NCBI GenBank assembly: GCA_905479115.1
Contig: CAJQLF010000040.1
Span: forward strand, 1 to 45,100
DNA: 45,100 nucleotides
Direction of reading: 5' to 3'
From: an uncultured Flavobacteriales bacterium
Lineage (GTDB): Bacteria; Bacteroidota; Bacteroidia; Flavobacteriales_D; Sanyastnellaceae
A program made the translations under genes and the position numbers. A model generated the notes under the pieces. The model did not search any database. It was not told the origin of the DNA and worked only from the letters and a program-made list of their open reading frames with translations. Below, piece after piece: positions 3,768 through 37,701 of this stretch (positions are counted from its first letter, which is position 1; each line of letters opens with the position of its first letter).

Positions 3768-6086
3768 CTAATATCGCAAAATTTTGCGTAAGATGCTCGT
3801 CCGTTTTTGAGGCTTCCATCGAAGGAGCCAGATGACCAACCAAGGCAGAACGAATAAGTCGGCTAAAACGGCAAGCACCAAGGTCAATGAGATCAAAACA
3901 CCAATGTAGAATGTGCCTAAGAAACTGCTCAATCCAAGGGTGATGAACCCTCCGCAGAGTATAATGCTCGTGATGATGATGGCTTTGCCTGCGCTTAAGA
4001 AGCTTCTTTTTACGCTGTAGATGAGGCTGTGCCCCTTGGCCAGTTGGAGGCGCATTTTACTGATGAAATGAATGGTGTCGTCCACTGCAATCCCAAAAGC
4101 GATGGTAAAGATGATGCTCGTCGAAAGTTTTAAGTCGATTCCCGTCCACCCCATGATCCCGGCAATCATCAAAAGAGGGAGCATGTTGGGGATGAGGGAA
4201 ATCAAGACCATTGTGCCGCTTCGAAACATGAGCCCTGCAATCAAGGCCACTATGATAAACGCGATGGACAGGCCTTTGGTCATATCGCTCGCCAAGGAGC
4301 CTATGTTCAAATCGATCAGCCGGGCGGTTCCTGTGAGATGCAGTGCAAGGGGGGAATCCGGATGGGTCGATTGGAACCAGTCTAAAAATGCTTCGTTTTG
4401 ACTTCGAAAATGCTGCGCACCTAAATCAGGAAGCTTACCAAAAACACGAAGCGCCCTTTCGTCCTCATTGACGACGATGCGCCAGGCGTCTATTCCTCCA
4501 AATTTTGTTACCGTTTCTGTGATTTGGTCTATGCTTCGTTGATTTTTGGGTACGGTTTGGAAGCGCGCCTGATCGCCGTTGTTTAAGCGATTAATTTGTG
4601 AGAGAATTCGGTCGCTGCTCACAAGGGAGCCAACCCCATAATGGCTCTCGAGGTAGGCCGTGATGGATTGCATCGTTTGCTGCACCTGCAGGTCCATAGG
4701 CTCAACCGAATCGGGCAATGAAATGGCAAGTTCGAACGGGCGCACGCCCGCAAATGACTCTTCGAAGAAGGCGAATTCTTTTCGAAATGGATCATCTTCA
4801 GCCAAGTCCTCCAAAAGAACATTGTTTACCTCTATTTGCAGGGCGCCAGCTACCGCAAGAGCAGTCAAACTCAAGGTGATAAAGGCAATGGTTCGAGGCC
4901 GACGCAGCACCTGCCTAAATCCTCGATGAAGCCAGCGATTCCACAATACGCCTCGACCTGATCTGGAAATATGCGGAGCCGGATACAGAATCATGACCGC
5001 TGGAAGCAAGGTGAAGGCCAGTCCATATGCTATTGCCACGCCAGCAGCAGCATACAAACCAAAGTTTTGAATGGGGACCACCGACGTAGTTAATAGTGTT
5101 AGAAACCCTACAGCGGTGGTTAGGGTGGTCAAAAAGGTGGCTAGACCGACTTCTTTAAATGCGGCTGCAATGCCATCAAACTGCGATTGGCCCTCACGCA
5201 GTTCTTCATAGTATCTCGAGAGGATGTGCACGACGTCTGAGATGCCAACGACAAATATGATTGTTGGAAGGACAATGGTCATGATGTCGATGGACTTGCC
5301 TGTCAATTGCATGAATCCCAGCGTCCAAAGTCCACTCAAGAGCACAACGAGCAATGGAATGATGACGCCCCAAACACTATGAAAGGCCACCCACAAAAAT
5401 AGAATCAAGATGCTGATGCCAATGCTCACGAACAAAACGACTTCGCGCTGCATCACATCGACATAGTATTTCTGGGCGACAGCTCTCCCGGCTACGTGAG
5501 TTTTCTCTGGCCACGTCTCAGTAAGTTCTAAAATCGCACGTGCTAGCGTGTCGCACCCTTGTTTGGAAAGCTTTTGATCATGCCGCAGCTGAATGCTCAA
5601 TGCTGCGCCGTCAGTGGCGATAAATGAGCCATCCCAGGTGGGGTGACCCGCTATCCGGGCAGAATCGGCACTCAAATGTCTTTCGACAAGGCTGTCAGGG
5701 GATTGCCAGCGAAGCAGCGGGCGCTGAACGACTGTGAAGCCCAATTTCACGGGCTCTGCAATCCGGGTTGGACTGACCACTTCGTTGACAAACGGAAGGG
5801 CGAGTAATTCATCTACGTGGGCATCGACTTTGCGCAAAAAATTCGCGTTGTAGATGCTACCTGGATGTTCGATTCCGATGATGAGGAAGTCATTGTCCGT
5901 CTCAAACTGTTCGCGGAAATCAAGATAAAAGGTGGTTTCAGGATCGTCTTTCGGAAAAAAGCTTTCGAAATCGTAGTTGAACCCAATGAGGCTTACCCGC
6001 CACCCCATGAACACGCTCATGAGTCCAATGAACCAGAGCGCCATGCGCGCTCGTCTCTTCCAAACGGGGTCGACATCCTCCACCAT
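3768..6086 (-). CDS. RND/MMPL superfamily membrane transporter
   Basis: 772 residues arranged as two repeated halves. In each, one transmembrane helix is followed by a large periplasmic domain (about residues 35-210 and 425-600) and then five helices. This is the hopanoid/lipid exporter-like MMPL (YdfJ-type) branch of RND permeases rather than the 1000-residue AcrB type. Family traits seen include the early FNYDFESFFPKDDPE segment, the GISDVVHILSRYYEE helix 4 region, and the matching GIAVDDTIHFISKM in the second half, with acidic residues that carry protons. Cargo is unknown; lipids or hydrophobic molecules are likely from family knowledge. Start ATG 6086 follows the dnaK terminator, so it needs its own promoter, and TAGCTTGG just upstream is a weak candidate. 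It is first gene of the RND-asparaginase-UbiA run. Confidence 0.88.
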   Translation of the reverse strand: MVEDVDPVWKRRARMALWFIGLMSVFMGWRVSLIGFNYDFESFFPKDDPETTFYLDFREQFETDNDFLIIGIEHPGSIYNANFLRKVDAHVDELLALPFVNEVVSPTRIAEPVKLGFTVVQRPLLRWQSPDSLVERHLSADSARIAGHPTWDGSFIATDGAALSIQLRHDQKLSKQGCDTLARAILELTETWPEKTHVAGRAVAQKYYVDVMQREVVLFVSIGISILILFLWVAFHSVWGVIIPLLVVLLSGLWTLGFMQLTGKSIDIMTIVLPTIIFVVGISDVVHILSRYYEELREGQSQFDGIAAAFKEVGLATFLTTLTTAVGFLTLLTTSVVPIQNFGLYAAAGVAIAYGLAFTLLPAVMILYPAPHISRSGRGVLWNRWLHRGFRQVLRRPRTIAFITLSLTALAVAGALQIEVNNVLLEDLAEDDPFRKEFAFFEESFAGVRPFELAISLPDSVEPMDLQVQQTMQSITAYLESHYGVGSLVSSDRILSQINRLNNGDQARFQTVPKNQRSIDQITETVTKFGGIDAWRIVVNEDERALRVFGKLPDLGAQHFRSQNEAFLDWFQSTHPDSPLALHLTGTARLIDLNIGSLASDMTKGLSIAFIIVALIAGLMFRSGTMVLISLIPNMLPLLMIAGIMGWTGIDLKLSTSIIFTIAFGIAVDDTIHFISKMRLQLAKGHSLIYSVKRSFLSAGKAIIITSIILCGGFITLGLSSFLGTFYIGVLISLTLVLAVLADLFVLPWLVIWLLRWKPQKRTSILRKILRY

Positions 6087-28781: not shown

Positions 28782-29273
28782 TTAGATGCACTTGAAGTGG
28801 TCAAACGGCTCGAGGCAGGATTCGCATTGAAAATGGGCCTTGCAGGCAGTAGATCCGAACGCACTGATCATTTTGGTCTCAGCGCTGCGGCAGCGAGGAC
28901 AGGAAATGTGTCGCTCTTTACCGAGTAAGAATGCTTTGTCGGCGCTGTTACCATCAGGCGGGGCGATGCCATGCTGTCTCATTTTTTCTCTTGCAGCGTC
29001 GTTGATCCAGTCCGTTGTCCACGCGGGTGAATGAACCAATTTCACGCGAAAGTTTGATTCAAACTCGGATACGGCATCTCGGATGTCATCTTGAATGGCA
29101 TCGGTCGCTGGGCAACCCGAATACGTCGGTGTGAGAAGAATGACTGCTGTGTCGTTCTCATCGAGCTCACAGCCGCGGACCATCCCCAGTTCTGTGATGG
29201 TCAAAAAGGGAAGTTCTGGATCCATGACGTTCGAGAGGCATGCTCGAATGCGACTCAAGCGATCATTCACCAT
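28782..29273 (-). CDS. paaD: 1,2-phenylacetyl-CoA epoxidase subunit PaaD
   Basis: 163 residues. The N-terminal MIP18/DUF59 domain has MDPELPFLTITELGMV and PTYSGCPATDAI with the conserved Cys54. The C-terminal zinc-ribbon has CPRC (125, 128), Cys144 and the CESC pair (150, 153), ending EPFDHFKCI as in other PaaD proteins. PaaD is required for epoxidase activity and is thought to help mature its iron or iron-sulfur centres. The gene overlaps the end of paaC by seven bases, the usual paaABCD order. Confidence 0.95.
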   Translation of the reverse strand: MVNDRLSRIRACLSNVMDPELPFLTITELGMVRGCELDENDTAVILLTPTYSGCPATDAIQDDIRDAVSEFESNFRVKLVHSPAWTTDWINDAAREKMRQHGIAPPDGNSADKAFLLGKERHISCPRCRSAETKMISAFGSTACKAHFQCESCLEPFDHFKCI

Positions 29274-30022
29274 TGCGCTCCGGGATAGGTGCGAGGAAGG
29301 ACTTGCATTTCAGCAAGAAGAAAAGAAAGATGTTCTGTGTGCAGACCGGACCGACCCCCTGATTGGGTACCGCTTTTTTCTGGGGCAACAAGCGTTGCCT
29401 CTTCTAGAATTCTGTTCATGGCCTCTTGCCAAGGCCCTTGTAAATCCTGGAGCAGCGGCATCAACCCAATTGCCGCAAGGGACTCAGAAACCGCATCTTC
29501 AATAAAAAATTCAGCAGTGTAAGGCCAGAGTCTGTCGAGGCTGTTTTGAATGCGCTGATGGCTTTCTTCTGTTCCGTCTCCCAATCGAATGACCCATTGG
29601 GCAGAATGTTCCGCATGGTAGCGTACTTCTTTCACTGCTTTCGCAGCAATCGCAGCAACTTCCATGTCGATTGACTGCGCTGATAAAGCCGTATAACGCA
29701 AGAGAGCAAATTGATCGAATAAACACTGCCGCATGATCGTATCTCCGAAATCCCCGTTAGGAAGCTCAACAAGTAGCGCATTGGTGAATTCGCGATCAGT
29801 GCGGAAGTAGGCCAAGGAGTCCTCATCCCGCCCTTTCCCTTCTCGCTCCGCGGCCAAGGTCAGGAAAGCACGTGCTTGGCCCAACAAGTCCAATGCGATA
29901 TTGGAAAGGGCAATGTCTTCCTCTAATGCAGGTCCGTGGCCGCACCATTCACCAAGCCTCTGTGCAAGAATAAGGGCGTCATCGCCCAGCCTCAATAAAC
30001 CAGTATGCTCGTGACTCTCCAT
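29267..30022 (-). CDS. paaC: 1,2-phenylacetyl-CoA epoxidase subunit PaaC
   Basis: 251 residues, ferritin-like helical protein. GDDALILAQRLGEWCGHGPALEEDIALSNIALDLLGQARAFLTLAA and the later EVRYHAEHSAQWVIRLGDGTEESHQRIQ match PaaC. It is the structural partner of PaaA in the PaaAC heterodimer and helps bind the CoA substrate. The start at 30022 shares one base with the paaB stop (TAATG), and the end overlaps paaD. Confidence 0.95.
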   Translation of the reverse strand: MESHEHTGLLRLGDDALILAQRLGEWCGHGPALEEDIALSNIALDLLGQARAFLTLAAEREGKGRDEDSLAYFRTDREFTNALLVELPNGDFGDTIMRQCLFDQFALLRYTALSAQSIDMEVAAIAAKAVKEVRYHAEHSAQWVIRLGDGTEESHQRIQNSLDRLWPYTAEFFIEDAVSESLAAIGLMPLLQDLQGPWQEAMNRILEEATLVAPEKSGTQSGGRSGLHTEHLSFLLAEMQVLPRTYPGAQW

Positions 30023-30315
30023 TACATGTTCTTCACTTCGTCCGGTAAATCATAGAAGGTGGGATGCCGATACACTTTGTCATTCGCTGGGTCGAAGAGC
30101 ATGTCTTTCTCCGAAGGGGAAGAAGCCGTGATATCTTCTGCCCGAACAGCCCAAATGCTCGTTCCTTCTTGGCGTCGGGTGTAAACGTCCCGCGCATTTT
30201 CCATGGCCATTTGAGCATCCGATGCGTGCAGACTGCCCACATGCTTATGGCTCAAGCCTTGCCGGCTTCTGATAAAAATTTCCCAAAGAGGCCAATCTTG
30301 TTTCTTAGAACTCAT
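30022..30315 (-). CDS. paaB: 1,2-phenylacetyl-CoA epoxidase subunit PaaB
   Basis: 97 residues from ATG 30315 ([33 protein letters not shown]), the normal length and start; a longer frame to 30438 runs antisense-like inside paaA and is not homologous. The core [30 protein letters not shown] is typical. PaaB bridges PaaAC dimers and probably docks the reductase. ATG overlaps the paaA stop (ATGA) and its stop overlaps the paaC ATG. Confidence 0.95.
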
Positions 30316-31268
30316 GCTGCGTGGGGTTGATCTGAATTTCGTTTTGCGCATTTTTCGGCATACGCTGCAGCTGCCTCGCGGACCCATTCGCCTTCGGTAT
30401 GCGCTTTGACACGTGTTTCTAGTCGCTCTCGGTTGCACGGGCCGTCTCCTGCAATAACCCGTTGAAGCTCACTCCAATCAATCGAGCCGAAATCATAGTG
30501 TCCCGTGTGTTCATTCCATTTCAAGTCAGGATCGGGGAGGGTTAAGCCAAGCAATTCTGCCTGCGGCACCGTCATATCCACAAATCGCTGGCGTAATTCA
30601 TCGTTGCTGAATCGTTTGATTTTCCACTTCATGGACTGATCGCTGTGCTTAGATTCACTGTCACTCGGACCGAACATCATCAACGAGGGCCACCACCAGC
30701 GATTCAAGGAATCTTGCGCCATCTCTTTTTGTTCGGGTGTCCCGTTGCACAGGTTCATCATGATGGAGAACCCTTGGCGTTGATGAAAGCTTTCCTCTTT
30801 GCACACCCGTACCATGGCTCTGGCGTACGGGCCGTAACTGCACTTGCACAAAGGCACTTGATTCATGATGGCAGCGCCATCCACCAACCAACCAATCGCA
30901 CCCATGTCCGCCCAGGACAATGTCGGATAATTGAAAATGCTCGAATATTTGGCTTTGCCTTCATGAAGGGCATCCAGCAATTCTTCTCGGTTGACTCCCA
31001 AGGTTTCTGCTGCAGAGTACAAATACAAGCCATGACCTGCTTCGTCTTGAACCTTGGCAAGCAGAATGGCTTTGCGCTTGAGGCTCGGTGCGCGGGTAAT
31101 CCAATTGCCTTCGGGCAGCATGCCAATGATTTCGCTGTGCGCGTGCTGACTAATTTGTCGAATCAGTGTTTTGCGGTAAGCATCGGGCATCCAGTCTTTC
31201 GCTTCAATTTTTTGTTCTGAAGCGATGTAGGTGTCGAACCGTTTTGTCAAGTCCATTTCTTGCGACAT
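30312..31268 (-). CDS. paaA: 1,2-phenylacetyl-CoA epoxidase catalytic subunit PaaA
   Basis: 318 residues from ATG 31268 ([28 protein letters not shown]); the frame extends to 31322, but that stretch lies upstream of the promoter. The di-iron ligand regions are visible: Glu46 in [11 protein letters not shown], Glu76 and His79 in QDEAGHG, and the EESFHQRQG box with Glu159 and His162, plus Asp130. PaaA epoxidises the aromatic ring of phenylacetyl-CoA using O2 and electrons from PaaE. It leads paaABCD, and its promoter overlaps a palindrome. Ring-opening and beta-oxidation genes (paaF, G, H, J, Z) and the CoA ligase paaK are not in the window. Confidence 0.96.
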
Positions 31269-31278
31269 GTGCGGATAT

Positions 31279-31296
31279 TTGTTACAAAGATAACAA
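31279..31296 (-). promoter_or_regulatory. paaA -7 element inside an 18-base inverted repeat (operator candidate)
   Basis: On the minus strand TTGTTATCTTTGTAACAA has perfect TTGTTA/TAACAA arms. The exact -7 element TATCTTTG (31292-31285) lies inside it, so a protein bound here would block paaA transcription. The predicted leader is about 13 bases. The -33 element is poor. No regulator is encoded beside it. Confidence 0.5.
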
Positions 31297-31333
31297 CCTG
31301 AGGCCCCAATGGTTTTGATCAAACTTTGTCGAG

Positions 31334-31341
31334 TATTTTCG
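31334..31341 (+). promoter_or_regulatory. -7 element TATTTTCG, leaderless geometry, for paaE
   Basis: TAnnTTCG ends four bases before ATG 31346. TTTG at 31314-31317, 16 bases upstream and part of the palindrome TTTGATCAAA, is a possible -33 element. Confidence 0.5.
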
Positions 31342-31345
31342 CGGC

Positions 31346-32428
31346 ATGAATGAATTTTTCACGCTGCGTGTTTCCGATGTGCGCAGGGAAACAGAAGGGT
31401 GCGTTTCGGTAAGTTTGGAAGTGCCAGAGGCGGACGTTAAATCGTTTTCTTTTGACGCAGGCCAATACCTGACACTGGAGGCAGAGATCAATGGACAGGT
31501 CGTTCGACGGAGCTATTCACTTTGCAGCGCTCCCTACGAAAAGGAATTGCGCGTTGCCATTAAGCAAGTCGAAAACGGCGTTTTCAGTACATGGGCAAAT
31601 CAATCGCTGCAAGCAGGGGATGAAATGCGTGTGATGCCTCCAAACGGCAAGTTTGTCTTGAAGACAGACGCGCAAGAATCTCGCGAATTTTTGGCCTTTG
31701 CTGCAGGTTCGGGCATTACACCCGTGTTAAGCCAAATCAAGCAAGTTCTTCACGAAGAACCGAACAGCCAGTTTACGTTGTTCTATGTCAACCGCGATAC
31801 ATCGAGCATCATCTTTCGAGAGGCGCTCCAGGAGTTAAAGGATATCTACCTCGAACGCTTTCGGTTGTTTCATATCCTCACCCGTGAGCCGCAGGACATT
31901 GAGCTATTCAACGGGAGGTTGGACGAGGAACGTTGCAGGGCCATTCTCACCAGTGAATGGGTCAATCTGGATCGGGTAGAGGCAGCATTCCTTTGTGGAC
32001 CGGAGCAGATGATTTGGGCATGCAAAGCTGCACTAGAAGGCGCGGGAATGAGTTCTGATGCGGTCAAATTTGAGTTGTTTACTTCGGGAAAAACGCAAGC
32101 GAACGAGGAAGAGGTTCGTCCAGATGTCGCTGCGGATGATCCAAATGGCAAGCGGCTTTCCATCGTGATGGATGGCGTGACGACCGTGGTGCAAGTTCCA
32201 CCGGGCAAAGCGATCATGGATGCGGCCTTGGATGCAGGACTGGATGCCCCATACAGTTGCTTGGGTGGCGTTTGTTGCACGTGCCGAGCCAAATTGGTGG
32301 AGGGCACTGCAGAGATGGAAGTCAATTATGCGTTAGAGCCCGATGAAACCGAAGCGGGCTTTGTGCTCACGTGTCAGGCTAAGCTAACAGGAGAAGGTCC
32401 GTACACCGTGGATTTTGACCAACAATAA
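31346..32428 (+). CDS. paaE: Phenylacetyl-CoA epoxidase reductase subunit PaaE
   Basis: 360 residues. The N-terminal ferredoxin-reductase module has the FAD motif RRSYSLCS (54-61), the NAD(P)-binding GSGITP (121-126) and CGPEQM (217-222). The C-terminal plant-type 2Fe-2S ferredoxin has Cys305, Cys310, Cys313 and Cys343. Electrons flow NADPH to FAD to 2Fe-2S to the PaaA di-iron site. In many bacteria paaE follows paaD in one operon; here it is transcribed divergently from paaA across a 77-base gap, so both units can share control. A generic ferredoxin-reductase is the only alternative, and context favours PaaE. Confidence 0.93.
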
Positions 32429-32441
32429 TGGGGTCAACGGT

Positions 32442-34337
32442 TTAGCCCGCCCGTTCAGATAATTCGAGCCATCGGTTTTCGGCGTCCTCCAACTCCGTGG
32501 TGACTTCGTTCAGTTCGTTACCGATTGATTGCAACTGTTCTGCGTCTTTGATTGAATAGAGCTGCTCGGTGAGCGATGACTTTCGACTTTCGAGCCCCTC
32601 AATCTTGCTTTCGAGTTGTTCGAATTCGAATTTCTCTTTGTATGAAAGTCGCTGAGAATAGTCATTTTTGTTCTCTTTAGAGGCTTCTGAAACCTCCGAT
32701 GGAGGTTGTCCACTCGTCGCTTGAGGTTTATTTTCAGCTTCTTTGAGTTGTTCGCTGAGAGCCAAACGATACTGCGTGTAATTGCCAGGATAAAATCGAA
32801 CTTCAGGGGAATTCCCCAGCACCCAAACGTGCTCGACCAGTCGGTCCATAAAATACCGATCGTGGCTCACGATGATGAGGCACCCGGGAAAATCCATCAA
32901 AAATTCTTCTAGAATTTGTAGGGTGTAGATATCCAAGTCATTGGTGGGCTCATCCAAGATCAAAAAGTTTGGATTGGCCATGATTACTTGGAGCAGATGC
33001 AGGCGTTTCCGTTCTCCTCCACTCAGCGATGAAATCAACTGGTGGTGGGTCGACCGAGGAAATAAAAAACGCTCTAGTAAGGCAGCGGCGGTTATTTTCT
33101 GGCCTTTTTCCAAGGGCATGAATTCGGCAATTTCATACACAGCCTCAATGATGCGCTGTCCATCTGGAAATTCTGCTCCCGATTGATGATAGTGTCCAAA
33201 AACGACCGTCTCACCCAGGACAACCTTGCCACGCGAAGGGGAAGTATTTTGAGTTATGATGTCGAGCAACGTGGACTTGCCGGACCCGTTTTGGCCCACG
33301 ATACCAATGCGTTCTGATCGTTTGAAATGGTGAGAAAGGCCTTCAAATAAGACGCGGTCATCAAATTGCTGGGCCACCTTATGGAGCTCAACAATTTTGC
33401 CCCCGAGGCGATGCGGGTTGAGGCGCAGGGTTAAGGGGTCCTCTTCCAATCTTTTTTTGGCGGCACTTTTGATTTCGTAGAATCGCTCTATGCGGGATTT
33501 GGACTTTCCCGTGCGGGCGGATGGTGTGGAGCGCATCCACTCCAGCTCACGCTTGAATGCTCCGCGTGCTTTGCCGCGGTTGGCCAATGCGTTTTCCTTT
33601 CGTTCTTCCCGTTTTTCTAAATAATAGCTGTAATTGCCCTTGTACTTAAACAGCGATTGGTCGTCCAATTCCAGGATGGTATCGCACACGTTTTCGAGGA
33701 AATAACGATCGTGGGTGATCATGAGCAGCGTCATTTTGGATTGGACCAAGTGCCGCTCAAGCCATTGAATCATGTCCAAATCAAGGTGGTTGGTGGGCTC
33801 GTCAAGGAATAACACTTCTGGTTCTTCAATTAACACACGGGCTAAAGCGATACGACGACGCTCTCCTCCGCTCAAAGATTCCATTTTACGGGTCAAATCA
33901 TGCAAATTGAGTTTACCAAGGATTTCTCTGGCCCGCGCCTCAAAGTCCCAACCGTCGTGCAGGTCCATTTGCTCGTAGGCTGCTTGCATTTGGCTGTCGT
34001 CCTGTCCAGATTCCAAGGCGCTCGCGTAGGCGCGCATGGCGACTACTGCCGCCATATCGCTCGCGTAGAGGTGATCCAGAATATCCTCTTCTGGTTCGAA
34101 CGAAGGTGCCTGTTGCAAATAGCTCCAACGAACGCTGGCGTCCATGCTAATCCTCCCAGAATCCAAAGGTTCGATGCCGCAGATTCCGTTGAGCAAGGTC
34201 GTCTTCCCGGTGCCATTTTTTGCCACGAGGGCTGTTTTTTGACCCAGCGAAAGTCCAAAGGTGAGGTCCTCGAAGAGCAGGCGCTCGCCGTAGCGTTTGC
34301 TTAAGTTTTCAGCGGAAAAAACATTGATGACTGACAT
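32442..34337 (-). CDS. ABC-F family ATPase (Uup-like)
   Basis: 631 residues, two tandem ATPase domains without membrane segments. Domain 1 has Walker A GKNGTGKTT (as AKNGTGKTTLLNG), signature LSGGERRR and Walker B LFLDEPTNHLD. Domain 2 has GQNGSGKS, LSGGERKR and LILDEPTNDLD. The linker with KRELEWMRSTPSARTGKSKSRIERFYE and the C-terminal coiled coil (about 545-625) fit Uup, which acts on ribosomes or branched DNA structures. ABC-F proteins bind the ribosomal E site. It converges on paaE with 13 bases between, and is divergent from the ElaA-DinB gene. ATG 34337 follows TACTTTCG by five bases. Confidence 0.93.
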   Translation of the reverse strand: MSVINVFSAENLSKRYGERLLFEDLTFGLSLGQKTALVAKNGTGKTTLLNGICGIEPLDSGRISMDASVRWSYLQQAPSFEPEEDILDHLYASDMAAVVAMRAYASALESGQDDSQMQAAYEQMDLHDGWDFEARAREILGKLNLHDLTRKMESLSGGERRRIALARVLIEEPEVLFLDEPTNHLDLDMIQWLERHLVQSKMTLLMITHDRYFLENVCDTILELDDQSLFKYKGNYSYYLEKREERKENALANRGKARGAFKRELEWMRSTPSARTGKSKSRIERFYEIKSAAKKRLEEDPLTLRLNPHRLGGKIVELHKVAQQFDDRVLFEGLSHHFKRSERIGIVGQNGSGKSTLLDIITQNTSPSRGKVVLGETVVFGHYHQSGAEFPDGQRIIEAVYEIAEFMPLEKGQKITAAALLERFLFPRSTHHQLISSLSGGERKRLHLLQVIMANPNFLILDEPTNDLDIYTLQILEEFLMDFPGCLIIVSHDRYFMDRLVEHVWVLGNSPEVRFYPGNYTQYRLALSEQLKEAENKPQATSGQPPSEVSEASKENKNDYSQRLSYKEKFEFEQLESKIEGLESRKSSLTEQLYSIKDAEQLQSIGNELNEVTTELEDAENRWLELSERAG

Positions 34338-34342
34338 GGGTG

Positions 34343-34350
34343 CGAAAGTA
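34343..34350 (-). promoter_or_regulatory. -7 element TACTTTCG, leaderless geometry, for the ABC-F gene
   Basis: On the minus strand TAnnTTCG ends five bases before ATG 34337. No clear -33 element. Confidence 0.45.
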
Positions 34351-34397
34351 CGCGCCGGGTGCTGGAAATCGGGGGCTTTCCCATTGTAAATTGCGGC

Positions 34398-35405
34398 GTG
34401 CTTTGGTTTGAAAAGACGTGGGGCGAAATGACCCCGATGGAGATGTTTGCTGCCTTGCGACTGCGGTCGGAAGTGTTTGTGGTGGAACAGGATTGTGTTT
34501 ACCCCGACTTGGACGACAAGGATGTTTCGTCAATTCATTTGGGGGCTTTGGCTGATGAGGCTGCGCCGGGTGAATCCGCAAGGGCCGTGGTTCGATTGGT
34601 TCCGCCGGGTGTCTCTTATGCTGAACCGAGTATAGGACGTGTCGCCATCGATGCAGGGGACCGCGGAAGCGGATTAGGCGTGGAGCTGATGGAGCGCGCC
34701 ATACGTTGTTGTGAGCGGCATTGGCCAGGAATGGGCATTCGTATTTCGGCACAACAATACCTGATTGGTTTTTACAACCGTTTGGGATTTTCAGCGGTTG
34801 GAGAAGGCTATGACGAGGACGGGATCCCTCACATTCAGATGTACCTTGCGCCTCGTGGGCTATCGCATTGGAAGGCGGAATGGAAGGACGCACGTAAGTC
34901 CTTTTGTGAGGAGTTGAATGCACTGCCTTTCGCACAGCTCAATGGCACAAAGGAGCATTGGGGCGGCTTGCAGGTGCTTGAGCACTTGCGCCTGTCTGAG
35001 GCTGGAATTTGGGGCTATTTGAACAAGAAGCGGCAAGCCAATCCCCTTGATCTGCCGAATTCAACGCTTGAATCCGATGGGCGCGGGTGGAGCTTGATTA
35101 AAGCGCTTCAGTCCAATGCTCGTTGGAAGGACCCAACGCCTGGGGCAAGATTGACTCCAGGTCAAGTGCAATCGCATGATTTGCACCAACTGCAGAGCGA
35201 ATGGGAGCAGGAACAAGACCAAGCCTTTGATCTTCTTGCTGATGCTTTTGAATCCGATTGTTGGTGGCAGGTGCAGGTTTTCAATCATCCGATTGCGGGC
35301 CGAATTTCGCTGTCTGATACCTTTGGTTTTGGCGTGGCGCACGTGCAACACCACATCCATCAATTGCGTCGGTTAACCCGTTCTATACCTGAAGACGCCT
35401 CATGA
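34398..35405 (+). CDS. Fusion of an ElaA-like GNAT acetyltransferase and a DinB-like domain
   Basis: 335 residues from GTG 34398 (VLWFEKTWGEMTPMEMFAALRLRSEVFVVEQDCVYPDLD), the usual ElaA beginning; GTG 34359 is an earlier option. Residues 1 to about 155 form the GNAT fold, with the acetyl-CoA loop around DRGSGLGVELME and the QQYLIGFYNRLGF strand. From about 175 the sequence changes to a helical DinB-like four-helix domain: GGLQVLEHLRLSEAGIWGYL, a histidine in the second half, and GFGVAHVQHHIHQLRRL near the end, giving the spaced histidines of a metal site. DinB-superfamily proteins include thiol transferases and proteins of unknown function. It begins an ATGA-coupled set with GT2 and the O-antigen-ligase-like gene, so it may act on glycan or cofactor; the substrate is unknown. 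Confidence 0.8.
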   Translation: MLWFEKTWGEMTPMEMFAALRLRSEVFVVEQDCVYPDLDDKDVSSIHLGALADEAAPGESARAVVRLVPPGVSYAEPSIGRVAIDAGDRGSGLGVELMERAIRCCERHWPGMGIRISAQQYLIGFYNRLGFSAVGEGYDEDGIPHIQMYLAPRGLSHWKAEWKDARKSFCEELNALPFAQLNGTKEHWGGLQVLEHLRLSEAGIWGYLNKKRQANPLDLPNSTLESDGRGWSLIKALQSNARWKDPTPGARLTPGQVQSHDLHQLQSEWEQEQDQAFDLLADAFESDCWWQVQVFNHPIAGRISLSDTFGFGVAHVQHHIHQLRRLTRSIPEDAS

Positions 35406-36439
35406 TATCTGTCGTGATTCCTTGTTTGAATGAAGTCGGGTACATCGAAAGTACCTTGAACAGCTTGCTGCGACAGGAAGACCCAGGAGAACCATGGGAG
35501 GTGGTTGTGGCCGATGGAGGCAGCGATGATGGAACCCGGTTATGTTTGGATCGTATCAGCGCCGAAAATGGGAACATTCGTTGGGTGGAGAATCCGCTCA
35601 AAACCACGCCGAATGCCTTGAATATAGGCATTGAAGCCTCAAAGGGGGAGACGATCATCATCTTAGGGGCCCACGCAGAAGTGGATGAAGATTTTTTAGT
35701 TCGGAACGCAGAGTTGATCAAGGCCCACCCCGAATCGGGCTGTGTCGGCGGAGTTGTTGAACAAGTGCACGGTTCTGAGGCTTCTCGACGAATTGGGGCA
35801 GCCATGAGTACTCCGTTCGGCGTCGGAGATGCTCGATTTCGCACAGGTGGAGCTTCGGGCCATGTCGATACCGTCGCATTTGGAGCTTACCGGAAGTCTG
35901 TTTTTGACGAAATCGGGTTGTTTGATTCAGCATTGACCCGAAACCAAGACGACGAATTGAATTACCGGCTTTTAAAATCAGGATGGCGCATATGGTTCGA
36001 TCCTCGGATTCGAAGTCGCTACCATGTGAGATCTACTTATAAAAATTTGTTGCGACAGTACTTTCAGTACGGATACTGGAAGGTCTTTGTGAATCGAAAG
36101 CACTCAACCATCACGACGTGGAGGCAAGTCATTCCGGCTCTTTTCTTATTGATTCTTGTTGTCACCGGAGCAGCCTGGGTTTGCGAGCTTCTCGGGCATT
36201 GGAATGAACTTTGGGATGGATTTGGAGCATCTATTTTCATGACATCGCTCTTCTTATGGATGGTGGGAGCTGCGGGCTCTGCCATTGCAGCGGCCAATAC
36301 ATATCGCGATGTGCTCGGAATTATGCAAGCTTTTTTGGTGATTCATGTTGGATACGGTTGGGGATATTGGCAGGGCATCTTGGATTTTTTGATTCTTCGC
36401 AGGAACCCTAGTTCGCAGTCCGAAGCCTTGACTCGATGA
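35402..36439 (+). CDS. GT2-family glycosyltransferase with membrane tail (ExoA-like)
   Basis: 345 residues. The GT-A start ISVVIPCLNEVGYIESTLNSLLRQ, the ADGGSDDGT strand and the later NQDDELNYRLLKSGWRI (catalytic-base region of GT2) are present. The mid motif is GAHAEVDEDF, with HAE in place of the more usual D-x-D. After about residue 235 there are two or three transmembrane segments (TWRQVIPALFLLILVV; SIFMTSLFLWMVGAAGSA). It resembles succinoglycan ExoA-type enzymes that add sugars to undecaprenyl-linked glycans. ATG overlaps the preceding stop, and its stop overlaps the next gene (both ATGA). Confidence 0.9.
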   Translation: MISVVIPCLNEVGYIESTLNSLLRQEDPGEPWEVVVADGGSDDGTRLCLDRISAENGNIRWVENPLKTTPNALNIGIEASKGETIIILGAHAEVDEDFLVRNAELIKAHPESGCVGGVVEQVHGSEASRRIGAAMSTPFGVGDARFRTGGASGHVDTVAFGAYRKSVFDEIGLFDSALTRNQDDELNYRLLKSGWRIWFDPRIRSRYHVRSTYKNLLRQYFQYGYWKVFVNRKHSTITTWRQVIPALFLLILVVTGAAWVCELLGHWNELWDGFGASIFMTSLFLWMVGAAGSAIAAANTYRDVLGIMQAFLVIHVGYGWGYWQGILDFLILRRNPSSQSEALTR

Positions 36440-37701
36440 GTTTCAGAATGCACAAATGGATGGCCTGGATGCCGGCGCTTACCGCATTGGCCATTCCCAT
36501 GCATCCCCGCCTCAGTAGCATTACCCTGCTCCTTTGGGTGTTATCTGTTGTGGCCTTTGAAGCAAGCGTTGTTTTTTCGGATGAATCGCCTGGATTACGG
36601 GGTTCATCCTCGGTATTTTTGGGAAGGTCAGGCAGGTGGTTTGCATGGGGTGGAGTGGGACTTTATTTGCTCTACGGCCTTGGTTTGTTTTGGACAGAGC
36701 GGATGGAGGTGGGGAGGTTTGCTATGGAAGGAAAATTCAGTTTGTTGCTGATTCCATTGCTCACGATGCATCATGTCGGTCGCTGGGGTAGGGAAGGGTT
36801 TGCGAAAGCGAGGCAAGCTTTTTGGCTCGGATTGATTGGGTTTGTGTTGTGGCGTGCTTCCTTCGCTTTGTTTTCTGGCGAAGACGGGGCATGGAGGTAC
36901 GATGGGTTAGCAGGACCCTTTCATCCGACCTACATGGGCATGTACTTGACATTGGGTGTCATATTGAGCTCATCAAAGAAGCATTGGAATCGTGTCATGG
37001 TCTGTTTGGCTGGGGTATTCGTTGGGCTATTGGCGTCGAAAGCGGCTTGGCTAGTGGCGACGTGTGCGTGGGGGGCAGAGGCCTTGCGTTCAAGGAAAAT
37101 GGAAACGAGCAGGGCGTTGAGTCTTTTTGCAGCAATTGTGCTGCTCGTGGCGAGCGGAACCATTGCCGACGAAGGAAGAATGGATGAGTTCCGTACGTAT
37201 GCTATGCCTGGCGCGGTGGCTGAACAGGCCGAAGAGTCCGCTTCGACAGCTCTTTTAGATTCGTCTCAATTGAATGAAAAGACAGGTTCTTCCGGAGGAA
37301 GGATGCAGGCGTGGAAGGCTTCAGTTGCGATAATGCAAACCCACGCTATCGGTGCAGGTACAGGCGATGTCACGGATGAACTTTGCTCTGAATACGAAAG
37401 GTTGGGGGCTCGTTATGCGCTCAAAAAGCGCATGAATCCTCACAGCGTATGGTTGCAATTAGGTGTGAGCCACGGTGTATTGGGGCTGGCTTACCTGCTG
37501 ATTTGGATCGGTGGAACGGCATTTTTAGCGGCCCGAAGTCGTCAGTGGATTTTGGTTCTCTGGCTCGGCATTTGGGCTGTGAATGGTTCCGTTGAAAGCC
37601 TGCTGGAATTACAGCAAGGCGTTGTCCCTACGATGTTCCTCACGTTAATGCTCGCTGTACTAACCTCGCCGGATCGAGCAGTTGACTCACTTGACGCGTG
37701 A
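36436..37701 (+). CDS. O-antigen ligase/polymerase-like membrane protein
   Basis: 421 residues with about 10-12 hydrophobic segments and a larger periplasmic loop around residues 245-335, containing SGGRMQAWKASVAIMQTHAIGAGTGDVTDEL and MNPHSVWLQLGVSHGVLGL. This is the Wzy_C/WaaL pattern (arginine then H-x-x-W). Such proteins polymerise O-units or ligate glycans to a lipid carrier on the periplasmic side. With the GT2 gene it suggests a small surface-glycan operon. It converges on pyrG. Confidence 0.85.
   Translation: MSFRMHKWMAWMPALTALAIPMHPRLSSITLLLWVLSVVAFEASVVFSDESPGLRGSSSVFLGRSGRWFAWGGVGLYLLYGLGLFWTERMEVGRFAMEGKFSLLLIPLLTMHHVGRWGREGFAKARQAFWLGLIGFVLWRASFALFSGEDGAWRYDGLAGPFHPTYMGMYLTLGVILSSSKKHWNRVMVCLAGVFVGLLASKAAWLVATCAWGAEALRSRKMETSRALSLFAAIVLLVASGTIADEGRMDEFRTYAMPGAVAEQAEESASTALLDSSQLNEKTGSSGGRMQAWKASVAIMQTHAIGAGTGDVTDELCSEYERLGARYALKKRMNPHSVWLQLGVSHGVLGLAYLLIWIGGTAFLAARSRQWILVLWLGIWAVNGSVESLLELQQGVVPTMFLTLMLAVLTSPDRAVDSLDA

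Follow-up and report, generated by a model that had tools for sequence, protein, structure and literature searches.

A single open reading frame in the window, by which we mean the whole 45,100-nucleotide stretch of DNA analysed here, joins an ElaA-type GNAT acetyltransferase to a DinB/YfiT-type domain. As far as the searches named below reach, this GNAT-DinB chain is a new domain combination of known families, and no description of such a fusion was found in the literature among the matches listed. Our preferred reading, held tentatively, is that the protein may be a bifunctional detoxification enzyme combining a bacillithiol S-transferase with a cysteine-conjugate N-acetyltransferase. The gene and its parts lie as follows:

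34398..35405, forward strand: fused gene, ElaA-type GNAT (N-terminal) plus DinB/YfiT-type domain (C-terminal); 335 aa, GTG to TGA
34398..34847, forward strand: GNAT (ElaA-type) half, residues 1-150; over the Pfam Acetyltransf_10 cut-off, with VIA Z scores to 1xeb and 5z6n
34860..35387, forward strand: DinB/YfiT-type half, residues 155-330; over the Pfam DinB_2 cut-off, VIA comparison made with the first, weaker model
34983..34985, forward strand: codon of H196, presumed metal ligand 1
35340..35354, forward strand: codons of H315-x-x-H318-H319, with H315 and H319 as presumed metal ligands 2 and 3

Pfam Acetyltransf_10 matched residues 78-149 of the fused protein with 42.7 bits (cut-off 23.6), and the best NCBIfam GNAT match was the ElaA model PRK10314. 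On this profile evidence we class the half as ElaA-type and, because the PRK10314 score of 91.7 bits stays under the equivalog cut-off of 171, do not call it an ElaA equivalog. DinB_2 covered residues 164-323 with 27.7 bits, only just over its cut-off of 24.8, and reached 30.1 bits when the second half was scored alone; it was also matched, at E ≤ 0.1, by all 15 scanned members of our DinB model A2. The solved structures nearest in sequence are PA0115 (1xeb) and E. coli ElaA (5z6n) for the first half and, for the profile of the second half, BH0186 (2rd9), YfiT (1rxq) and TTHA0303 (2yqy), at E-values between 0.0001 and 0.0014.

Two structure models of the protein were obtained, the first built on 12 fused sequences (pLDDT 77.7) and the second on 107 sequences, comprising 22 full-length ones plus separate ElaA-type or DinB proteins (mean pLDDT 95.2, pTM 0.92). 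By VIA, the fold of the GNAT half was nearest to PA0115 (Z 24.2, 146 aligned residues, 1.2 Å) and E. coli ElaA (Z 23.1, 142 aligned, 1.2 Å), and S. aureus SACOL1063 (5jph) reached Z 21.3 with 27% identity. The second model places helices of the DinB half at residues 155-174, 190-211, 224-238, 262-280 and 305-326. Because the GNAT domain fills the match list of this model, where all of the best 50 matches listed are GNATs or CoA-dependent relatives, we assessed the DinB half on the first, weaker model. With it, the DinB-fold chains 1rxq, 2yqy, 6iz2, 2ou6, 7mtl and 2rd9 lay over the C-terminal half at Z 10.8-12.4, led by YfiT (1rxq, Z 12.4, 151 aligned, 3.7 Å) and 2yqy (Z 11.9, 124 aligned, 2.5 Å), with 6iz2 at 11.6, 2ou6 at 11.0, ClbS at 11.0 and 2rd9 at 10.8. 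Helical bundles can reach Z ∼13 by chance and these values fall within that range, so that the assignment to the DinB fold is carried by the sequence profile and the histidines described next.

H196, H315 and H319 are invariant in 48 of 48 proteins, namely 22 fused ones and 26 separate DinB proteins (23 from the window's family and 3 from other families). W188 is likewise kept in 48/48 and Q322 in 47/48. In the profile alignment the three histidines line up with histidines of YfiT, the last two falling on its WHSHHHIAHI segment, and we take these YfiT residues to be its metal ligands. We therefore regard H196, H315 and H319 as the likely metal site of the DinB half, as predicted from the alignment; DinB proteins usually hold their metal by three conserved histidines, according to excerpts of PMC10950700. 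The sequence-only reading had named an ElaA-type first half and a DinB-fold second half with a late H-x-x-x-H. Both assignments stand: the GNAT fold is clear, the C-terminal half resembles the YfiT bundle, and the late motif is the H315/H319 pair, which H196 completes to a predicted three-histidine site.

The GNAT half is equally well preserved. Of 33 positions checked, those that never vary among 59 separate ElaA-type proteins do not vary in the 22 fused ones either, and R23, E30, Q31, C33, D39, D42, R89, Q119, Y126, Y138, D141 and H145 are kept in 22/22 and 59/59. R89-x-x-G-x-G is present in all 22 fused proteins; among the separate ones G92 is kept in 54/59 and G94 in 52/59 (7 Ala). We take this to be the acyl-CoA-type motif of the family, and no observation points to the thiol-dependent acyl transfer suggested in the sequence-only reading. 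The protein thus shares fold and invariant positions with the ElaA-type GNATs 5z6n, 1xeb and 5jph, from which it differs by its sub-cut-off PRK10314 score and by its fusion to a second enzyme-like domain. The DinB_2 assignment, helical-bundle model and three-histidine pattern are common to the second half and to YfiT/BstA of B. subtilis (1rxq), TTHA0303 of T. thermophilus (2yqy) and BH0186 of B. halodurans (2rd9).

Both halves were found in 22 of the 22 searched genomes of the genus, that of the window included. A join of two frames by sequencing error, the objection raised beforehand against the fusion, is ruled out, since 19 of these genomes carry both halves in one ORF; the fusion claimed at the outset is real. 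The remaining three genes are interrupted by assembly gaps (an N-run in G009, contig ends in G209 and G271). Between the window and its nearest relative dN/dS was 0.09 for the GNAT half and 0.15 for the DinB half, figures that are rough because dS is 1.0 and 1.4, respectively.

In the taxonomic family the fused-protein model matched in 102 of 114 genomes (E ≤ 1e-3; table count). DinB matches (model A2) occurred in 48 of the 114, each together with elaA; an extra weak 48-residue DinB match elsewhere in the genome of G012 was left aside from this number. Outside the window's genus, the 26 genomes with DinB fall, by table count, into 21 tandem elaA-dinB pairs, 3 fusions (G061, G217 and G237), one divergent arrangement of adjoining genes (G186) and one case split between contig ends (G181, with elaA and dinB each at an end). 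In the tandem pairs elaA is directly followed by dinB on the same strand, with 4-base overlaps in 8/21. Genes lying side by side in relatives suggest that ElaA-type and DinB-type proteins work together. A further 54 family genomes have an elaA match and no DinB match. Sixteen elaA loci fetched from these genomes gave no DinB by profile; in 15 of the 16, elaA adjoins an ABC-F gene and/or pyrG, and in G056 a paaE-like ORF lies between elaA and the ABC-F gene. Since many bacteria, these 54 genomes among them, have ElaA-type proteins, the ElaA-type GNAT has a role independent of DinB.

Fused loci all lay on one side of a single branch in an ABC-F tree of 60 rows (SH-aLRT 94) and in a DinB tree of 47 rows (SH-aLRT 90), both made by a quick method with midpoint drawing and including several rows that are long, such as L214 in the ABC-F tree. 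Because of this grouping, a single origin of the fusion is the simplest reading. DinBs of other families fall, on long branches, among the separate DinBs of the window's family; the separate pairs may therefore have one origin or several, which leaves room for a reading without joint chemistry, in which the DinB half serves the acetyltransferase as a regulatory or metal-sensing add-on or is merely co-expressed with it. Fusion by itself is no proof of channelling either. We nevertheless judge this reading somewhat unlikely, as the conserved histidines, W188 and Q322 are what would be expected of a working site.

The arrangement was also sought beyond the family. Neither the order search (399 genomes, E ≤ 1e-3) nor the phylum search (395 genomes, E ≤ 1e-45) gave, among the matches listed, any match spanning both halves outside the window's family; the order-search listing could omit weaker pairs or pairs in different frames. 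Sixteen loci outside the family were fetched, most of them chosen because the match extended far beyond the GNAT half or crossed stop codons. An ElaA-type gene was present in 16/16, and the profile of window-family DinBs found no DinB within ∼2 kb on either side of elaA, or within the shorter distance available at contig ends. In G013, G015 and G018, which belong to other families, DinB lies away from elaA. From at least 569 confirmed contig loci, 80 were kept for the DinB profile search, which gave one marginal match, more than 5 kb from elaA, in L088; a profile of this kind could miss more distant DinB neighbours. Among plasmid records 52 matched, none over 80% of the query. The search for fused or adjacent genes in other Bacteroidota was thus positive within the family, with both fusions and tandem pairs, and gave none outside it among the matches listed.

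The surroundings of the fused gene bear on its function, and comprise the following features:

28782..32428: paaD, paaC and paaA (reverse strand) and a paaE-like ORF (forward strand), 1,2-phenylacetyl-CoA epoxidase genes; syntenic neighbours
32442..34337, reverse strand: divergently oriented neighbouring gene for an ABC-F ATPase that passes the 'ribosomal protection-like ABC-F' cut-off
34385..34393, forward strand: promoter-like box TGTAAATTG, 4 bases before the GTG of the fused gene
35402..36439, forward strand: GT2 glycosyltransferase, in ATGA overlap with the fused gene; neighbour, outside the conserved unit
36436..37701, forward strand: O-antigen-ligase-like (Wzy_C) gene; neighbour

A second in-frame GTG at 34359 would give a longer ORF. 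We favour the GTG at 34398 as the start because of the alignment of relatives and because the TGTAAATTG box is conserved 4-5 bases 5′ of it in 20/20 same-genus loci examined. On the minus strand of the window, TACTTTCG stands just before the ATG of the ABC-F gene (34335-34350), and in g12 and g28 the ATG of the fused gene is immediately preceded by TAACTTCG or TACCTTCG. The boxes before both divergent genes resemble what we take to be the Bacteroidota-type -7 box consensus, and suggest leaderless transcripts of both genes starting from such boxes. The ABC-F protein of the window scored under the cut-offs of the EttA and Uup models. In two g10 genomes (L189 and L190) the ABC-F gene lies on the same strand, ∼10 bases upstream of elaA-dinB; it is divergent in most other loci.

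Downstream, the ATGA overlap with GT2 described in the sequence-only reading is confirmed, GT2 starting at 35402, and recurs in many same-genus loci; in several genera without GT2, Wzy_C directly follows dinB. These adjacencies favour the earlier proposal, in which the downstream GT2 and Wzy_C genes make a sugar or lipid-linked glycan and the fused protein modifies it. The fusion, however, persists in G007 (95% complete), with pyrG directly after it; a search of that genome at E ≤ 1e-20 gave no GT2, and Wzy was sought at the locus alone. It persists in G156 as well, where all that was found of GT2 is a 64-residue remnant. Six loci of genera g9, g10, g15 and g22 have one or two long opposite-strand ORFs intervening between dinB and GT2, and neither GT2 nor Wzy was seen at the fetched g19, g20 and g23 loci, where elaA remains. 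The link between elaA and dinB is therefore tighter than that of dinB to the glycan genes, and across the loci compared in the family the fused gene or elaA-dinB pair is not kept only alongside GT2/Wzy. Gene order and loss so weaken the glycan function that we consider it very improbable, and the tie to glycan export is not sustained.

Some details of these loci deserve mention. Loss of GT2/Wzy inside the genus is seen at L218:6806-7462 and L029:9638-9760: G156 retains remnant frames, and G007 gave no GT2. Between dinB and GT2, four genera share an opposite-strand ORF (∼540-560 aa) whose W/G-rich repeat units look like a beta-propeller by eye, and L188 has a second opposite-strand ORF, of another kind, at 4403-5440. 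The W/G-rich ORFs lie at:

L188:2706-4319, L189:3694-5316, L190:6493-8112, L191:3956-5587, L192:3892-5568 and L193:3594-5270, all on the opposite strand

On the other side of the ABC-F gene, the NCBIfam models placed paaD, paaC and paaA over cut-off and PaaE at 408.8 against 420.8 bits; an additional ORF lies between paaC and paaA (30022-30438). Many members of the family share the synteny of this block. Phenylacetyl-CoA epoxidase makes a reactive epoxide, which makes the paa block a candidate source of an electrophile near the fused gene. A paaE-like ORF was present at 17 of 20 further same-genus loci, at 11 of the 27 remaining loci that have DinB (split halves counted) and at 9 of 16 loci without DinB; several of the stretches end too early to reach it. 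Since the block also stands at loci lacking DinB and is not seen at many that have it, we treat it as a lead only.

The thiol context was examined in the genome of the window and across the family. BshA (537 bits, cut-off 273.7) and BshB1 (269.5, cut-off 182.5) are encoded in the own genome together with a BshC-like protein under the NCBIfam cut-off, as it is in the other 21 genomes of the genus; judged from these genes, the host is equipped for bacillithiol synthesis. The fused protein is the only DinB_2 match in this genome (E ≤ 0.1). The PIG-L search matched solely within the BshB1 gene, and gave no dedicated LmbE-type S-conjugate amidase besides it in the own genome. BshA passed its cut-off in 107 of the 114 family genomes and BshC-like proteins were found in 99; with DinB the counts were 46/48 for each, and without DinB 61/66 and 53/66. 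Because most of the 114 genomes have the genes, this co-occurrence is uninformative.

In bacillithiol users a DinB-type Bst conjugates the electrophile, an amidase cuts the product to the cysteine conjugate, a GNAT N-acetylates the latter and the mercapturate is exported. According to PMC5815605, all eight B. subtilis proteins of the DinB/YfiT superfamily are reported to be bacillithiol transferases, the B. subtilis genome has GNAT genes near its bst genes, and as of 2018 both the mercapturate-forming GNAT of the pathway and the natural substrates of the transferases were still to be identified. SACOL1063, the structural relative of the GNAT half, acetylates threonine (excerpts of PMC10267138). 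With its DinB domain and a GNAT whose relative acts on an amino acid, the fusion fits the first and last steps of this route. In the bacillithiol/mycothiol mercapturate pathway (Bst/Mst, Bca/Mca, GNAT), the fused activities would be the first and last enzymatic steps for bacillithiol users; no case of a Bst-type protein and a GNAT in one chain was met in the genome, plasmid and literature matches listed, whereas in the window protein the two proposed roles are joined.

GNATs of the SnaA/SnaB type act on cysteine conjugates, and in EgtB the partner of the DinB domain is FGE-sulfatase-like. The eight B. subtilis superfamily members are single-domain proteins and EgtB and LmbV combine a DinB thiol-transfer domain with a second domain (PMC5815605). 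In the window protein the DinB domain follows a GNAT; the partner domains of EgtB and LmbV are not GNATs.

In the detoxification reading that we prefer, the fused enzyme would be cytosolic, and its DinB/YfiT half would bind a divalent metal via H196, H315 and H319. The metal would activate the thiol of bacillithiol, or of a derivative such as N-methyl-bacillithiol, to attack an electrophile. An LmbE-type amidase would then cut the conjugate to the cysteine S-conjugate, a task that BshB1 would have to perform as well, and the ElaA half would use acetyl-CoA to acetylate the alpha-amine of this conjugate, so that a mercapturic acid could be exported. The location, the metal binding, the thiol, the two substrates and the sequence of steps are our proposal. 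Points in favour are that the two domains and their sites are conserved, that elaA and dinB adjoin in relatives, and that the own genome has bsh genes and a single DinB_2 match; against it stand the lack of a dedicated amidase, which is the weakest point, a DinB half barely over the Pfam cut-off with structural Z scores that a helical bundle may reach by chance, the DinB-independent role of ElaA-type GNATs, and a bsh distribution that hardly discriminates. The two-step modification envisaged in the sequence-only reading thus retains support as a proposal, separated from glycan export.

Two other readings keep both halves enzymatic. A metal-dependent DinB hydrolase or isomerase could be paired with an amino-acid acetyltransferase for two steps in the catabolism of a shared small substrate or in self-protection against it, with no thiol involved. 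ClbS, a DinB-fold protein with a non-thiol role, is among the structural matches, and one of the 15 scanned DinB members weakly touches MDMPI_N; a host with bacillithiol genes and no other DinB_2 match argues the other way, and we rate this reading as unlikely. Alternatively, the GNAT half could act like MshD and acetylate the cysteine amine of bacillithiol, the DinB half using N-acyl-bacillithiol as its thiol. MshD acetylates cysteine in mycothiol synthesis (excerpts of PMC4360819), and the bacillithiol amine is N-methylated in Chlorobi/Bacteroidetes (excerpts of PMC6282198). Such a role would also explain the single LmbE-type protein of the own genome. The 54 family genomes with elaA and without DinB speak against it, E. 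coli and other organisms that are not known bacillithiol producers have ElaA-type proteins, and to our knowledge no N-acetyl-bacillithiol has been described; the chance that this reading applies is accordingly slight.

Within the detoxification reading, a more specific version is that the GNAT half is the missing N-acetyltransferase of the bacillithiol mercapturate pathway and that the electrophile may be the product of phenylacetyl-CoA epoxidase, which we regard as doubtful. If it were true, ElaA-type GNATs in general would be cysteine-conjugate acetyltransferases. The growth of an E. coli strain was inhibited when ElaA was overexpressed (excerpts of PMC6199490), and our literature search found no report of a substrate for ElaA itself. 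ElaA-type acetyltransferases are widespread, and the fusion, together with the family-wide two-gene unit, ties them to DinB-type proteins; if the GNAT half acetylates the cysteine conjugates of the pathway, a missing step of bacterial electrophile detoxification would be identified.
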